From assembly GCF_945882965.1 (NCBI RefSeq), contig NZ_CAMCWY010000004.1, positions 1-64,000 on the forward strand: a stretch of 64,000 nt of DNA, read 5' to 3'. The position numbers and the translations under genes were made by a program. Below are positions 17,893-63,878 of this stretch, piece after piece. The stretch's first letter is position 1. Each line of letters opens with the position of its first letter. The notes under the pieces are model-generated. The model saw only the letters and a program-made list of their open reading frames with translations. It made no database searches and was not told the origin of the DNA. Source of the stretch: Sphingorhabdus sp. EL138 (GTDB lineage Bacteria; Pseudomonadota; Alphaproteobacteria; Sphingomonadales; Sphingomonadaceae).

Positions 17893-17924
17893 AAATGTGC
17901 GCTTTACTGAATGGGGGGTTCGGG

Positions 17925-18452
17925 ATGCATTTGAGGGAAGCACAACGCGATATGCGCCGGGCCTATGTCAACGGTGGGGTTGGTATTTTCGTATCCGGAC
18001 TATTGTGGGTAATCGCAGGGACGGTCACTTTCTATGTCGACCTGTTTTCTGGCATGGCCACTTTGTTTTTTGGCGGTATGCTGATCCATCCATTGTCGTT
18101 GTTTCTTGCGCGGGGGGTATATCGTCGGGGGAGGGCGCGCGCGCCGAACCCAATGGAGATGCTCGCGCTGCAATCGACGGCGTTCCTCATCATTGGCCTT
18201 GTCATCGCATATCTGGTTAGCGGGACATATGGTGATTGGTTCTTTGCCATTGCCTTGGCGGTGGTGGGGGCGCGTTATCTGGTGTTTCAGACGGTCTACG
18301 GCATGCGCCTTTATGTTATGCTCGGCCTAGCCCTAATTGCCATCGCCGCCGTCGCTTTCTGGGCCGGCATCACGCCGGCATTTGTCGCCTTTGCCGGGGG
18401 CGCGACCGAGTTGTTAATTTCGGCGTTCATTCTTGTGCCGGCAAAACGTTAG
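17925..18452 (+). CDS. Hypothetical multi-pass membrane protein
   Basis: A 175-residue protein with about five to six hydrophobic segments (roughly 20-43, 47-65, 85-101, 106-122, 130-148, 152-170) and few charged loops. I do not recognise a named family with confidence. I chose the ATG at 17925 because a run of six G lies 6 bases upstream; an ATG at 17895 would add ten residues. The TAG stop overlaps a TTAGGGTCAGGACCTAG motif that recurs in this window. The gene is convergent with the next one. Confidence 0.65.
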   Translation: MHLREAQRDMRRAYVNGGVGIFVSGLLWVIAGTVTFYVDLFSGMATLFFGGMLIHPLSLFLARGVYRRGRARAPNPMEMLALQSTAFLIIGLVIAYLVSGTYGDWFFAIALAVVGARYLVFQTVYGMRLYVMLGLALIAIAAVAFWAGITPAFVAFAGGATELLISAFILVPAKR

Positions 18453-18465
18453 GGTCAGGACCTAG
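18449..18465. repeat. Solo copy of the GGGTCAGGACC end motif
   Basis: The 17-mer TTAGGGTCAGGACCTAG occurs here and identically at 51616-51632. Its first 14 bases match the ends of the 265-bp repeat at 20011 and 40806. It spans the stop codon (TAG, 18450-18452) of the membrane protein gene and sits between two convergent genes. Confidence 0.75.
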
Positions 18466-18466
18466 C

Positions 18467-18841
18467 TTAAAGCGCCTCGATTTCCGCCGCGTTCAATTGA
18501 ACACATCCAAAAGCACCGCGCCGTTCCGCCACAGCTTCGGCCAGAAACGGCACCGACGCATAAACGCGTTTATTTTCCGGATCGTCGCTCAAACGCACCA
18601 TCTCCATGCCTTTTTCCTTGTCGGTTTCACACGACGCCATATCGCGACCTTCCATATAGCGGCATGAGCAGGTGACATGCGCGCCATAAGCGGCGCCAAC
18701 CCGCGCCTGTCCCTTGATGCTGTTCCAGTTCCACATCAACCACAGGGCCGCAATTAGGACGATGACCGCAACGACAATCTTCAACCTCTTGAACCGAGGT
18801 TGCGATGCTTTTGGTCTTTGGGTCGAAGTTGCGGTTGCCAT
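18467..18841 (-). CDS. Hypothetical single-pass membrane/periplasmic protein
   Basis: A 124-residue protein with a basic N-terminus (KASQPRFKRLK), one membrane segment at about 23-42 (IVVAVIVLIAALWLMWNW) and a periplasmic domain containing cysteine pairs (CSCRYMEGRDMASC, and a C near the end). It looks like a small conserved sphingomonad envelope protein; function unknown. The ATG at 18841 has GGAGAG three bases upstream. The longer upstream frame overlaps the divergent hydrolase gene and is not used. It is divergent from the serine hydrolase, with 22 bases between start codons. Confidence 0.7.
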   Translation of the reverse strand: MATATSTQRPKASQPRFKRLKIVVAVIVLIAALWLMWNWNSIKGQARVGAAYGAHVTCSCRYMEGRDMASCETDKEKGMEMVRLSDDPENKRVYASVPFLAEAVAERRGAFGCVQLNAAEIEAL

Positions 18842-18863
18842 AAGCTCTCCATTTGGTAAATCC

Positions 18864-20012
18864 ATGCGTTCTATGCCTAGAAACAAAATCCTCCTCGCCG
18901 CAACCGCTTTTTGCGCCATCTCTGCACTCAACCTATCTGGATGCGCTGCGGAGCCACCTGCCAAGCCTGCTGGTCCGGGTGTTAGCATGGTTGCCGATGA
19001 TGCGGTGATCAGCAAAGCAAAGCTTGCCGCTGCTATAGCGCCCTTTTTTGAAGATCCCGTGGTTGGTGAAACCCGCGCGTTGGTCGTCATGCATGGGGGG
19101 CGTGTTATCGCCGAACGCTACGCGCCGGGATATGGACCGGACTCCAGGCTCATCAGCTGGTCCATGGCCAAAAGCGTGACTGCCGTCTTGGTTGGCATGA
19201 TGGTGGCGGACGGTCGGCTGGCCTTGGATGAACCTGCAATCGTGCCCGAATGGCAAACGCCCCGCGATGGTCGTGCGGCGATAACATTGCGCCATTTGCT
19301 GCATATGTCGTCGGGTCTGGACCACACCGAAATGGCGGAAGGCAGTGTGGCGATTTTTGACGCAGACACGCCGCGCATGCTGTTTCTTGATGGCCGCGAA
19401 GATGTTGCACGCTATGCAGAAACGCGGCCCTTGGAGGCCGTTCCGGGCGAGAAGCACGAATATAGCACGGCCACCAGCCACATACTCGTCGACATCATGA
19501 CGCGGTCGTTGACGGATAGCAAAGACCCCGTTGTGCGCCGGGATGCGATGTTGGAATATGCGCGCGGCCGTTTGTTTGAGCCGCTGGGCATGACAAGCGC
19601 CTTACCTGAATTTGACCGCAATGGCACAATGCTCGGCGGAAGCTTTATCCACGCCACCGCGCGTGATTGGGCAAAATTTGGCGAATTTTTGCGGAACAAT
19701 GGCTCGGTGCGCTCTGCGCAAATGATGCCGACAAGCTGGATGCGTTTTATGAAGACGCCAAGCAAAACCGATGCAAGCTATGGCGCGCATATATGGTTGA
19801 ACCGGAAACGTAAGGAAGGCCGCGATCCAGTGCTGTTTCCCGGCAAGGCACCATCGGATGTCTTCGCCGCATTGGGACATTTGGGGCAGTTTGTAGTGGT
19901 GTCACCGCAGCATCGCCTAACGATTGTGCGGTTAGGTAATACGCCAGATAATCAGCTTGATCCTGTCAACGACCAACTGGCCAAGCTGATTTCGGCTTTT
20001 CCGAAGCCTTAG
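18864..20012 (+). CDS. Lipoprotein serine hydrolase (class C beta-lactamase/NylB-like fold)
   Basis: A 382-residue hydrolase of the beta-lactamase class C/6-aminohexanoate-dimer hydrolase group. A lipoprotein signal ends in LSGC with the lipidated Cys at 27. The catalytic S-x-x-K is SMAK at 100-103 (in SWSMAKS). The tyrosine motif fits Y-S-T in HEYSTATSH, and the third motif is GHLGQ in place of KTG, typical of esterase-like members. Likely exported and membrane-anchored, acting on an ester or amide substrate not identifiable here. The TAG stop is formed with the first bases of the 265-bp repeat. Confidence 0.85.
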   Translation: MRSMPRNKILLAATAFCAISALNLSGCAAEPPAKPAGPGVSMVADDAVISKAKLAAAIAPFFEDPVVGETRALVVMHGGRVIAERYAPGYGPDSRLISWSMAKSVTAVLVGMMVADGRLALDEPAIVPEWQTPRDGRAAITLRHLLHMSSGLDHTEMAEGSVAIFDADTPRMLFLDGREDVARYAETRPLEAVPGEKHEYSTATSHILVDIMTRSLTDSKDPVVRRDAMLEYARGRLFEPLGMTSALPEFDRNGTMLGGSFIHATARDWAKFGEFLRNNGSVRSAQMMPTSWMRFMKTPSKTDASYGAHIWLNRKRKEGRDPVLFPGKAPSDVFAALGHLGQFVVVSPQHRLTIVRLGNTPDNQLDPVNDQLAKLISAFPKP

Positions 20013-20275
20013 GGTCAGGACCACTTAAATCCACCTTCGCGGCGTCAAAATGGCAAAGATATAGAAGTAAAATGGCCGCCGCAGGCAGTCATTCTGCCTG
20101 CAAGGGCATTTTGCTTTGAGATCGAAGCCATTTTGGCGTCCTTCGGATTTGACCCATTTTGTCCATTGCCGCGTTGGCAAAGCTAGACTTAGAACCACTA
20201 AGTCCTGCGCTTACCGCCTTGCACTGAACAAAATGGCTTCAAACCGCGAAGGTGGATTTAATCGGTCCTGACCCT
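20011..20275. repeat. 265-bp inverted-terminus repeat, copy A
   Basis: A 265-base non-coding element beginning AGGGTCAGGACC and ending with the reverse complement, GGTCCTGACCCT. The ends form an inverted repeat of about 32 bases with a few mismatches. It is about 95 percent identical to the reverse complement of 40806-41070, which has exactly the same length. Inside are hairpins GCAGGCA-GTCATTC-TGCCTGC and GACTTAG-AACCA-CTAAGTC, and several CAAAATGGC/GCCATTTTG words in both orientations. It has no credible ORF. It lies precisely between two convergent genes, and each end contributes the TAG stop of its neighbour. MITE-like by structure, but no parent transposase is in the window. Confidence 0.85.
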
Positions 20276-20564
20276 AAAGCTTCGCCACGGGCGCGTCGTC
20301 GCCAAGGTCTTCAAACCATGCTTCGACCGGACCGCTGAGCTTTATCAGCAATGGGTTGCCTTTGCGATCACGCGCTTTGCCAGCCTGAACCTTGATCCAG
20401 CCTTCGGAAATGCAATATTCCTCAACTGTGGTGCGGACTTCACCCTTAAAGCGAATGCCAATGCCACGCGACAGCAGGTCGCCATCGAAATGCGCGCTCA
20501 TCGGGTTAATCGACAGGTGATCGGGCGGGGTGTTGGGGCCCGCGGATATTGTTTCTTCAGTCAT
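20274..20564 (-). CDS. DUF3297 family protein
   Basis: A 96-residue protein with the DUF3297 pattern: TPPDHLSINPMSAHFD, RGIGIRFKGEVRTTVEEYCISEGWIKVQAGK, DRKGNPLLIKLSGPVE. The family is small, soluble and of unknown function, common in proteobacteria. The ATG at 20564 begins MTEETISAG; the extra upstream codons of the open frame lie in the divergent oxidoreductase leader and are not used. The TAG stop is supplied by the right end of the 265-bp repeat. Confidence 0.85.
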   Translation of the reverse strand: MTEETISAGPNTPPDHLSINPMSAHFDGDLLSRGIGIRFKGEVRTTVEEYCISEGWIKVQAGKARDRKGNPLLIKLSGPVEAWFEDLGDDAPVAKL

Positions 20565-20628
20565 GTTGCGCGCTGTGCCGCAAAGCATAGCACTTGGCAA
20601 TATGGCGCGGGCAGTGCAGGGGGTCGAA

Positions 20629-21840
20629 ATGGCAAGTTCAAACAATTATGACGCGATTATCCTTGGGGCCGGTGGCGCAGGCCTGATGTGCGCTTTGACC
20701 GCCGGGCAACGCGCAAAGCGCGTGCTGGTGATTGATCACGCCACGGGCCCCGGCAAGAAAATCCTCATTTCCGGCGGCGGACGGTGTAATTTCACCAATG
20801 TGAATGCGACCACCACGCACGCGCAAGAACGCTATCTGTCGGCCAACCCGCATTTCGCAAAGTCAGCTTTAGGCCGATATACCCCGCAGGATTTCATTGA
20901 TCTGGTGAGCGCGCACAATATCGCTTTCCACGAAAAGACGCTTGGGCAATTATTCTGCGACGGTTCCGCGCGGCAGATTGTCGCCATGCTGATGGCGGAA
21001 TGTGACAAATCGGTGAGCTTTGGTGGTCAGGTCGATTTCGTGTTTGATGCACCCGTCGGTGAAGTGACCCATGACGGCAGCGATTATCATGTCACCTATA
21101 ATGGAGTGCACGCGCAAGGCGCGGCGCTGGTGATTGCGACCGGCGGCCCAAGCATTCCGAAAATGGGGGCTACCGCCTTTGCCTATGATCTTGCGCGACA
21201 GTTCGGTTTGAAGATTGTTGAGCCACGACCCGCTTTGGTCCCGCTAACGCTTGGCGGGGATGATGTGCTGTTCCGCGAACTATCGGGCGTATCGTCTGAA
21301 GTGGTTGCCAAGCATGGAAAGGCTGCATTCCGCGAGGCTGCGTTGTTCACCCATCGCGGGCTAAGCGGCCCGGCAGTGCTTCAAGTCAGCAGCTATTGGC
21401 GGCCGGGGGATCAAGTCGAAATTGATTTCCTGCCATCATTGGATGCGACAGAATTATTGTTATCGGAAAAACGCGCACGGCCACGTGCGACTTTGCGGTC
21501 AACGTTGGACCGAGTGTTGCCTGCGCGCTTGGCCGAAGCGCTCGCCGCCAAAATTGGTCTACTCGGCAACCTTGCCGACCAAAACGACCGGAAATTGGAG
21601 GGTGCCGGCGCGCTACTCGGCAACTGGCCATTCGTGCCCAATGGCAGTGAGGGCTATGCCAAGGCAGAGGTGACATTGGGCGGGATAAGCACCGATGGCC
21701 TGTCGCAAAAGACGATGGAGGCAAAGAAAATGCCAGGGCTATACTGCATAGGCGAGGCGGTGGACGTCACCGGTTGGCTTGGCGGATATAATTTCCAATG
21801 GGCTTGGGCCAGCGGTGTCGCGGCAGGGGAAGCCATCTAA
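20629..21840 (+). CDS. BaiN/RdsA-type NAD(P)/FAD-dependent oxidoreductase
   Basis: A 403-residue flavoprotein of the HI0933/BaiN family. The FAD-binding GAGGAG is at residues 13-18, followed by the family-specific GPGKKILISGGGRCNFTN. Further blocks are ATGGPSIPKMGATAFAYD, THRGLSGPAVLQ and the C-terminal GGISTDGL...PGLYCIGEAVDVTGWLGGYN motif. Reaction in this organism is unknown; relatives reduce various small molecules. The ATG at 20629 has AGGGGG five bases upstream. It shares a terminator with convergent typA. Confidence 0.9.
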   Translation: MASSNNYDAIILGAGGAGLMCALTAGQRAKRVLVIDHATGPGKKILISGGGRCNFTNVNATTTHAQERYLSANPHFAKSALGRYTPQDFIDLVSAHNIAFHEKTLGQLFCDGSARQIVAMLMAECDKSVSFGGQVDFVFDAPVGEVTHDGSDYHVTYNGVHAQGAALVIATGGPSIPKMGATAFAYDLARQFGLKIVEPRPALVPLTLGGDDVLFRELSGVSSEVVAKHGKAAFREAALFTHRGLSGPAVLQVSSYWRPGDQVEIDFLPSLDATELLLSEKRARPRATLRSTLDRVLPARLAEALAAKIGLLGNLADQNDRKLEGAGALLGNWPFVPNGSEGYAKAEVTLGGISTDGLSQKTMEAKKMPGLYCIGEAVDVTGWLGGYNFQWAWASGVAAGEAI

Positions 21841-40805: not shown

Positions 40806-41070
40806 AGGGTCAGGACCACTTAAATCCACCTTCGCGGTTTGAGGCCATTTTGTTCAGTGCAAGGCGGCAAGGCGCAGGCTTAGTGGTTCTAAGTCTAGCT
40901 TTGCCAACGCGGCAATGGACAAAATGTGTCAAATCCGAAGGACGCCAAAATGGCTTCGATCTCAAAACAAAATGCCCTCGCAGGCAGAATGACTGCCTGC
41001 GGCGGACATTTTCCTGCGATATCTTTGCCATTTTGACGCCGCGAAGGTGGATTTAAGTGGTCCTGACCCT
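40806..41070. repeat. 265-bp inverted-terminus repeat, copy B
   Basis: Same length as the element at 20011-20275 and about 95 percent identical in reverse orientation. The terminal inverted repeat is perfect over about 32 bases here, beginning AGGGTCAGGACC and ending GGTCCTGACCCT. It contains the same hairpin core GCAGGCAGAATGACTGCCTGC-type stem. The open frames inside are spurious. It lies right after the stop of the TMEM175-like gene. Confidence 0.87.
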
Positions 41071-41389
41071 AAGTCTATATCGACATTACCCAGCCTGCTT
41101 GCACGCCGCAAATGTTGCCGATCACTGCCATGGTTCAACGCCTGCGTCATTCAGAAGAGGACGCTACGGTTAACCAGAACACGGCATTGGCTTAACAAAG
41201 CCACCAAAAGACTGACCCCCGGCTGTTATCGGCGCAAGCCATGTTGCATTGATGTTGCACGGAGCAGCCGAGACTGATCGTAATTGCCCGGAAACGCACA
41301 GAATTGACTAGGGAACGCAACAAACGCTGACGCGAGCGTTCCTCAATGCCGTTACCTAATAACACGCAATGAAATCAGAATTTTTAAGA
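41071..41389. other. Gene-free stretch between the repeat and tRNA-Gln
   Basis: About 320 bases with no credible ORF. A GGAACGC/GCGTTCC hairpin sits at about 41313-41343, but no T run follows it on the tRNA strand. I see nothing else in it. Confidence 0.45.
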
Positions 41390-41463
41390 TGGTTCCCCGG
41401 TAAGGATTCGAACCTCAATAGACGGAGTCAGAGTCCGTAGTCTTACCGTTAGACGACCGGGGA
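41390..41463 (-). tRNA. tRNA-Gln (anticodon CUG)
   Basis: On the minus strand, a 74-base cloverleaf including an encoded CCA (41392-41390). Acceptor arms TCCCCGG/CCGGGGA, anticodon stem ACGGA/TCCGT around a CTCTGAC loop (anticodon CTG), and T arm with GGTTCGAATCC. The discriminator base is A. It decodes CAG. Confidence 0.95.
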
Positions 41464-51615: not shown

Positions 51616-51632
51616 TTAGGGTCAGGACCTAG
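51616..51632. repeat. Solo copy of the GGGTCAGGACC end motif
   Basis: Identical 17-mer to 18449-18465 (TTAGGGTCAGGACCTAG), nine bases after the PBP1A stop. No second, inverted end was found nearby, so it is not a full 265-bp element. Confidence 0.75.
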
Positions 51633-62733: not shown

Positions 62734-63764
62734 AAAAACGGGCTTTAGTCATCTGCCCCGGGCGCGGGACATATAACGCTGCAGAGCTTGGCTATCTGCG
62801 CACGCATCATGCTGCGCGCGGGGACATAATTGCCACTGTAGACGCCGTGCGGGCGACGAAGGGGCAGGCGACTGTCGCGCAGCTGGATAGTGCAGACACA
62901 TACGCGCCATCGGTGCATATGACGGGCGATAATGCCTCGGCGTTGATCTATGCATGCGCAATGGCGGACTTCGCTGCGATTGACCGCGAACGATATGAGA
63001 TTGTCGCGATAACCGGCAATTCTATGGGCTGGTATCTGGCATTGGCGTGTGCGGGTATCGTCGATCTTGCGGGCGGGACGCGGCTCGTCAACAATATGGG
63101 CGGCATCATGCATGAGCATGGAACCGGCGGACAAATTGTCTGGTCAATCGTTGATGATGATTGGAAAATTAGCCAAGAAAAAATGCGTCTTGTCAGTGAC
63201 TTGTTGCAGGAAGTACAGACAGTTTCAAACATTAAAGTCCACATTTCCATTCGCCTGGGCGGCATGATTGTTTTTGCAGCCGACGACGCCGGGCTGAAAT
63301 GGTTGATGGAGCGGCTGCCCAAAGACGACCGTTTTCCGTTAAAGCTAATGCATCACGCCGCATTCCACAGCCCCTTGCTGAATCATATTATTCCGATGGT
63401 CCGGGCAGAGAATCCTGTGGGCGATTTCGGGGCTGGCGAAATTCCCGCGATTGATGGGCAGGGCCGGATTTGGTCTCCCCGCGCATTCAGCCGTGCGGCC
63501 ATTTATGACTACACACTCGGCGCGCAACTGACTGACAGCTATGATTTTACCCGCGCAGTTCATGTCGCAGCCGCTGAATTTGCACCCGACACGATCATCG
63601 TTCTAGGCCCCGGCACGACGTTGGGCGCGCCCACTGTGCAGGCGCTGATCGCTTCGGGCTGGCGCGGTCTGTCGAGCAAAGCGGACTTTCAGGCGCGGCA
63701 GCAGGATGAACCGATCCTTATTTCCATGGGCATGGCCGAACAGCGCGCTTGGGCGTTAAGCTAG
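62730..63764 (+). CDS. Malonyltransferase-like (FabD-fold) acyltransferase
   Basis: A 344-residue protein of the [acyl-carrier-protein] S-malonyltransferase fold. The nucleophile motif is GNSMG with S98 (in AITGNSMGWYLA), and the catalytic His is H213 in AAFHSPLLN, the FabD FHSPL signature. It differs from housekeeping FabD in the weak N-terminal motif (ICPGRGTYN instead of FPGQGSQ) and in the arginine-site region (HISIRLGGMIVF). Its ATG overlaps the E1-fusion TGA, so the two are translationally coupled and may work together. Substrate and acceptor unknown. Confidence 0.78.
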   Translation: MKKRALVICPGRGTYNAAELGYLRTHHAARGDIIATVDAVRATKGQATVAQLDSADTYAPSVHMTGDNASALIYACAMADFAAIDRERYEIVAITGNSMGWYLALACAGIVDLAGGTRLVNNMGGIMHEHGTGGQIVWSIVDDDWKISQEKMRLVSDLLQEVQTVSNIKVHISIRLGGMIVFAADDAGLKWLMERLPKDDRFPLKLMHHAAFHSPLLNHIIPMVRAENPVGDFGAGEIPAIDGQGRIWSPRAFSRAAIYDYTLGAQLTDSYDFTRAVHVAAAEFAPDTIIVLGPGTTLGAPTVQALIASGWRGLSSKADFQARQQDEPILISMGMAEQRAWALS

Positions 63765-63878
63765 GTCCTGTCCCGAAGTCTTGCATACGAATAAGCGCTA
63801 GACGCCTTCTCGCTTCGGGATAAAGGGAGGGACGAATTGCAAGGCGATTGTCTGCTGCCTTGCCAGGAGACCGACGGA

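Follow-up and report, generated by a model that had tools for sequence, protein, structure and literature searches.

Two copies of a short non-coding repeat were located in the window, that is, the whole 64,000-nucleotide stretch of Sphingorhabdus sp. EL138 DNA that was analysed. Copy 1 occupied positions 20012..20274 (+) and copy 2 positions 40807..41069 (-), in the opposite orientation. Both were 263 bp long and, when trimmed to GGG...CCC, were identical at 246 of 263 positions (93.5%). They were part of an inverted pair, the arms of which (20005-20275 and 40806-41076) were 93% complementary. A first-pass annotation of this DNA had described two inverted copies of 265 bp, about 95% identical, with terminal inverted repeats of about 32 bases. 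The copies, their equal length and the repeats were all confirmed, but the length of 265 bp included 2 flanking bases, the identity was lower, and the inverted repeat was found to be 31 bp long. The end-to-end match over 33 bases held at 29 positions in copy 1 and at 31 in copy 2.

From left to right, copy 1 consisted of the left terminal inverted repeat (20012..20042, +), which formed the 5' side of a stem designated P1, a long hairpin termed arm 1 (20043..20138, +), a mini hairpin TCCTTCGGA between the arms (20139..20147), a second long hairpin termed arm 2 (20148..20243, -), and the right terminal inverted repeat (20244..20274, -) as the 3' side of P1. The longest ORF measured 57 aa inside copy 1 and 73 aa inside copy 2, and the short frames were partly common to both copies; the absence of an ORF, as annotated previously, was confirmed in that no frame exceeded 73 aa in either copy. 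The element therefore has the make-up of a MITE, being short (263 bp), bounded by 31-bp repeats and devoid of a transposase.

Copy 1 bore ends of type A (see below) and exactly separated two convergent reading frames, 18714-20012 (+) and 20274-20645 (-), whose TAG stops were completed by the two outermost bases of the copy. It was flanked by TA on both sides (20010..20011 and 20275..20276). Copy 2 was bordered by TA at one end only, the other end being next to CA (window strand). A tRNA gene (Rfam RF00005) was also found near copy 2, at 41393-41463 (-).

Copies in this genome and in its relatives

Six near-full-length copies on five contigs, 91-95% identical to copy 1, were present in this 2.36-Mb genome (G000; 99.85% complete, 38 contigs), together with partial ones among 52 matches. 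The suggested search for other copies here and in relatives thus revealed a dispersed family, and the alternative that only two copies existed through a single duplication was not borne out. Matches were obtained in 26 of 61 genomes (this one included), all 26 being among the 37 of the same genus, and G020 alone accounted for 38 matches. Of 45 genus genomes, 13 contained the exact 22-base end, and 62 + 66 such ends were counted in G027. Two full-length copies with 91% identity to copy 1 were found in G064. A scan of named genomes returned 98 matching stretches, mostly from Sphingorhabdus among the 80 matches listed. In the family Sphingomonadaceae, 33 of 397 genomes matched, in 16 of 96 genera, which is a lower bound because two candidates at most were scored per genome. 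Relatives with 67-72% identity over 96-97% of the query were carried by plasmids of Sphingopyxis, Sphingobium and Novosphingobium; phage records gave no match to the element.

Further, a covariance model of arm 1 was run under strict filters against 385 Alphaproteobacteria genomes. It recovered three of them, namely this genome and two from other families, and gave no match in the four other Sphingomonadaceae of that set. The two distant elements (L379 and L380) were 262 and 264 bp long. Both were flanked by TA left and right, their ends matched, and the predicted three-way fold was the same. L379 was 65-68% identical to family members. For L380 the identity was about 54%, against 46% for shuffled sequence, and its kinship with the family is probable.

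The set used for comparison was assembled from 77 examined loci, 70 of which passed the filter (L065, L068, L070, L071, L072, L345 and L346 were dropped). With the two window copies it comprised 72 elements, or 68 after removing repeats. The length was 262-264 bp in 58 of the 68 and 257-278 bp in the remainder, in a count that admitted 250-280 bp only, shorter forms lying outside it. The folded design persisted across genera of Sphingomonadaceae and rarely outside the family, with covarying stems. The high identity of the two copies had been attributed earlier to recent spread or to conservation by function. These do not form an either/or, as the copies are 91-95% identical here, yet a covarying fold is kept across genera. 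Among the matches listed in searches of the open-licence literature (sphingomonad MITEs, IS427/IS5 ends, the end sequence), no description of the family was found. We regard it as a new family of MITEs that has IS5-type ends and an unusual degree of structure; its mobility is well supported.

Target sites, stop codons and shortened forms

At orthologous sites free of the element, the left and right flanks overlapped by exactly 2 bases, TA. This was seen in the pairs L101/window, L116/L169, L149/L137 and L054/L234, for the short form L222/window, and for copy 1 against G027. A single TA in the empty sites corresponded to TA on both sides of the element, which established TA as the target duplication and answered the earlier call for target-site duplications; the preferred target was YTAR. 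A pyrimidine preceded TA in 361 of 373 ends, in a count limited to ends having TA. At the copy-1 site, a single TA without the element was present in one of 12 orthologous rows (L290 of G027), and in the 11 others the intergenic spacer contained 14-16 unrelated bases. For copy 2, no orthologous site was found among the loci examined. The MITE-like character proposed by the first-pass annotation was borne out by the empty sites, the TA duplication, the many copies and the IS-like ends.

Insertion at the ends of genes was frequent. Of 113 elements, orthologous relatives included, 105 had both ends testable, and in 45 of these one end or both coincided exactly with the termination of a frame open for at least 80 codons; in 12 of them this applied to both ends. 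Counted per element end, the figure was 81 of 274, and for lone ends 39 of 99. As a control, an open 80-codon frame ended at 77 of 593 YTAR sites and at 666 of 3,628 TA sites of any kind in the window. Intergenic YTAR sites lay at gene stops in 19 of 91 cases, under a rule stricter than that for the elements (genes of at least 100 codons with a start). A Fisher test with counts of 46 and 59, set against these 19 of 91, gave p ~0.0008, an approximate value, as the 46 include one element with an untestable end. Landing on stops was hence common, yet only about twice what such sites offer, and the enrichment is indicative only. The orientation of the elements relative to genes was even (28 vs 30), which is expected also without a function. 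On both sides the element starts with G after the duplicated TA, and its insertion into a TAA or TAG stop would recreate TAG. We proposed that gene ends are harmless landing sites because insertion into the TA of a stop restores TAG.

Shorter forms were observed as well. At one orthologous locus the element measured 264, 159 or 80 bp depending on the genome, and at another 263 vs 177 bp; the shorter forms appear to have arisen by deletion between short repeats within the element. The 13-mer TAGGGTCAGGACC occurred 50 times in the 2.36-Mb genome vs 0 for the backward pattern. Among 41 distinct exact sites examined in this genome, 29 were lone ends, followed by TA in 16 cases, by CTA in 5 and by neither in 8.

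Three such remnants were recognized in the window. The first, TA-GGGTCAGGACC-TA at 18452..18462 (+), had its first position completing the TAG stop of the frame 17895-18452. The 13 bp of the window were lacking in 6 of 10 orthologous sites, three others had 14-17 other bases, and one (G014) had a remnant of its own. The second, TA-GGGTCAGGACC-TA at 51619..51629 (+), corresponded to a full 263-bp element at the same TA in G027 (L171/L291), five other relatives having neither. The third, at 63764..63774 (-), had one mismatch and is probably a decayed 11-bp remnant; it was 13 bp longer than the single orthologous site seen (L289). We interpret the lone ends as what is left after deletion between GACC or CCTA repeats located in the two ends; short insertions that arose separately are a possible alternative. 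The orthologue of 51619 in G007 (L279) contained the 11-mer in reverse, without added length vs other relatives, and does not simply fit the deletion reading. It was also noted that G014 (L296) and the window share a lone end at the same stop-codon TA, absent in 6 of 10 orthologous rows, which suggests repeated use of one target. The repeat family is useful for the annotation of sphingomonad genomes, and it offers a graded series from the full copy to the 11-bp remnant.

Element ends and the probable IS5-type partner

Several outer end types were distinguished, namely type A (GGGTCAGGACC..), type B (GGCCGTGAACTCATAA) and others starting with GGGTTCGGA.., GGGCCAGACTCC.. and GGCCATAAACC... Transposases accompanied by such ends were sought in the genus. 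The PF13340 domain was detected in 17 of 45 genus genomes, this genome being outside the 17. It was not found in G000, G020, G007, G003, G016 or G022, and the second transposase half was not found in G020, G007, G016, G022 or G003, though all of these carry the element. Among 30 PF13340 loci, five (L310, L321, L322, L327 and L328) contained ISs 842-886 bp long that were flanked by TA and had type-A-like ends reading GG(G/C)TCA(G/A)GA(C/T).., and two (L299 and L300) had type-B-like ends. A further IS in G064 (L404) had GGGTCCGGAC ends. Locus L309 had one type-A-like end beside its transposase; it was rejected as a complete IS, since the second end lay 2.2 kb away at the contig end, and it was counted as one end.

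The closest type-A IS was L328, in which the outer 11 bp were identical at one end, equalling the outer 11 bp of the left repeat of copy 1, and 10 at the other. It had GGGTCAGGAC at both ends and GGGTCAGGACC at one, and the other ISs differed there by at least one letter. The closest type-B IS was L299, with 15 of 16 positions at each end; L310, L321, L322, L327 and L300 were looser. The L328 IS and two full-length element copies occurred together in G064. The frames of L328 and L299 corresponded to halves of an IS5-family transposase (PF13340, PF01609, NF033580). The first L328 frame alone reached 100.7 bits against the NF033580 cut-off of 110, and the other three halves were above the cut-off. 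The element thus resembles IS5-family ISs (NF033580 transpos_IS5_3 type) in the type-A end GG(G/C)TCAGGA.. or the type-B end GGCCGTG.ACTCATAA (best in L299) and in the TA flank, whereas those ISs have two transposase frames and about 840-890 bp.

A truncated relative was located in this genome at G000:C2:132021-132350 (L400). It was the C-terminal half of a transposase, with 59% identity, and terminated in TTA-GGGTCAGGACTCAT, the N-terminal half not being seen there. It sits between frames that were named, from the look of the sequence, glycosyltransferase-like and AMP-binding-like. The lack of an assigned transposase or named family in the first-pass annotation could accordingly be remedied in part: IS5-family ends were found in congeners and a broken relative here, and neither an Rfam family nor a published description was found for the element. 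Likewise, the full-length transposon with the same ends that had been suggested as a check took the form of IS5-family ISs with like ends in sister species, and here of the broken relative only. Judging by the ends, an IS5-type transposase probably acts in trans to cut and insert the element. As the only IS of such kind found in this genome was broken, its copies of the element are probably no longer mobile. An IS5 transposase beside the Sphingobium plasmid copy was also considered as the partner; by eye it had its own ends (GAGCCCGAT) and was taken as a neighbour.

A parent of the IS630/Tc1-mariner group, as is thought for TA-ended MITEs such as RUP, would account for the TA target duplication. 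This origin is nevertheless very unlikely, as similar ends were found on IS5-family elements, and the one IS630 that was seen in the loci examined (L103) sits inside a copy, splits the core and does not supply the ends. The idea of an IS630 parent had been prompted by a 1,438-bp end-to-end pair in G027 and was rejected when an IS630-like IS (L103:4042-5479; 81.2 bits vs a cut-off of 100) was located inside that copy. The pneumococcal RUP is a MITE that also uses TA targets and presumably depends for its movement on an IS with common ends, which acts in trans; its presumed partner is IS630-Spn1 (PMC2229807), vs the IS5-family-like ends of the present element.

An even more improbable origin is a REP-type element of a Y1 (RAYT) transposase. 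The end motif GGGTCAG..TTAA resembles ends that occur beside Y1 transposases, but PF01797 had no match in G000 and was present in 4 of the 45 genomes of the genus; it was missing from G027, which has the most exact ends, and a TA duplication was present. A Y1/RAYT partner was rejected on these PF01797 results.

In a tree of the 68 cores built without the ends (L067 and L368 being assigned to A by hand), label B, comprising 12 rows, needed 7 changes, at least 4 of which were forced by starred branches. Type-A cores in G016 and G032 were 92-95% identical to a type-B core of G022. The stretch behind the outer end varied among copies and matched within a copy, with a self-pairing of 0.943 and a cross-pairing of 0.600. 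The two end types resemble different IS5-type ISs. They look like related ends of this type, so that exchange by recombination has a rival explanation in fast co-divergence. An exact match to the 19-bp type-B end CTAGGCCGTGAACTCATAA was also encountered singly in plasmids of Rhizobium, Sinorhizobium and Mesorhizobium (L329 and L330; 5 records at 100%), and a Bradyrhizobium match (H6) turned up as well.

Bacterial MITEs are commonly regarded as short-lived remnants that arise by deletion from a single IS. In the present family, one folded core has retained its length and shape across genera, with ends like those of at least two different ISs. A core with varied ends makes testable what selection on a MITE acts on, i.e. 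the core RNA, the DNA fold or the ends alone. A more far-reaching proposal would be that the identity of the element resides in a long-lived core, which belongs to a 264-nt three-way junction with one RNA-optimised arm per direction of transcription and persists across Alphaproteobacteria with its ends repeatedly exchanged, riding different IS5-type transposases in turn, while its two-way RNA fold protects genes at their stops; in this full extent we consider it rather doubtful.

The three-way fold and its strand preferences

The RNA of copy 1 was predicted to fold with -145 kcal/mol (z -15.1) and the other strand with -141 kcal/mol (z -12.8), the DNA having a z of -15.5. None of 200 dinucleotide shuffles folded as well in any of the three (RNA +, RNA - and DNA), a stability well beyond chance. 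The alignment comprised 55 of the 68 elements, 13 close copies being left out by choice. Modelling by RNAalifold showed the element as a closed three-way junction with strong covariation. The consensus contained 90 pairs, 68 of them with two-sided changes, which occurred in each of the 8 helices. The paired cells amounted to 96.4%, against 78.1% in shuffled and 31-46% in slid controls, and further pair types numbered 180 vs 143. Most weight was placed on the slid control and the further pair types, because related sequences inflate covariation numbers. The unpaired stretches were conserved. Homology of arm 1 with the reversed arm 2 was considered and found unsupported, with a score of 38 against a shuffled mean of 33.8 (sd 5.0).

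The wobble pairs were then compared between strands, in the same 55 elements, which are related. Stem P1 showed no strand bias (G-U 24, A-C 27). Arm 1 contained 175 G-U and 17 A-C pairs, and its RNA was more stable on the element + strand in 52 of 55 elements. Arm 2 contained 16 G-U and 138 A-C pairs and was more stable on the - strand in 55 of 55, both arms being counted over the union of both strands' structures. The same strand direction per arm was seen in L379 and L380, with arm limits set by hand. When only pairs predicted on both strands were counted, the bias shrank to 34 vs 13 in arm 1 and 6 vs 9 in arm 2; much of it sits in pairs predicted by the fold of one strand only. Preference of the whole element for one strand was unsupported, the + strand being more stable in 20 of 55 only.

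These results bear on two other explanations. In the first, the element would be an ordinary MITE with a functionless interior, the arms of which match only through repeated correction of its imperfect palindromes by template switching during replication; the fold would then be a by-product. It is a serious contender, to which we would give somewhat less than an even chance. Stem P1 is free to vary while its arms match, without strand bias, so its arms may be matched by correction at the DNA level; forms of about 80, 159 and 177 bp, where others have 263-264 bp, indicate that the core is locally dispensable. However, the internal arms have a strong and opposite bias, which strand-blind DNA correction does not produce, and the unpaired bases are conserved and the two distant relatives have 262 and 264 bp. 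In the second, a structured non-coding RNA gene, regulatory or guide-like, would be moving by means of IS ends. The z of -15, the two-sided changes in 8 of 8 helices, the conserved unpaired stretches and the recovery of the element beyond Sphingomonadaceae by the covariance model would agree with it. It is nonetheless unlikely, since the arms prefer opposite strands, which leaves no single best transcript, and Rfam contained no family at gathering score for the element. The first-pass annotation had allowed for a known structured RNA family; the matches of copy 1 were weak, the best being FinP with 19 bits vs a cut-off of 45 (E 0.23).

We favour a non-autonomous 263-bp MITE with TA insertion, IS5-type ends and a three-way fold, which would be moved by a transposase in trans and form hairpins upon read-through; a probability of roughly 0.8 was assigned to this reading. 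The strand bias agrees with a pair of RNA hairpins, each transcribed towards the interior from the end on its own side. Asymmetric mutation, for instance by transcription-linked deamination, may account for part of it. Read-through from a neighbouring gene would meet first the arm whose wobble pairs favour that strand. Each transcript might then, at lower confidence, gain a strong hairpin at its 3' end, by which the mRNA would be protected or transcription terminated. Such a gain would lower the cost of insertion, and would explain both an arm structure that outlives its sequence and one core with different end types. A role at mRNA 3' ends was put forward as a hypothesis.

Several known elements are comparable. 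CIR of Caulobacter and Brucella is also alphaproteobacterial and TA-ended, with 5' and 3' sections that are separate long stem-loops; it is set apart by its description, which has no closing 5'-3' stem (PMC2229807). Correia/NEMIS of Neisseria is a MITE that ends in TA and has long inverted repeats as well as a core; its transcripts are cut by RNase III (PMC10969869, PMC2649163), and it differs, as described, in its 24-bp repeats and 107/155-bp forms (PMC2229807). ERIC/IRU is a 127-bp non-coding palindromic MITE of several genera of Enterobacteriaceae, which has TA at both termini, folds as RNA and was reported to alter mRNA stability when transcribed (PMC2229807, PMC10969869). Compared with this description, the present element has twice the length, a closed three-way junction, arms preferring opposite strands and several IS5-type ends.
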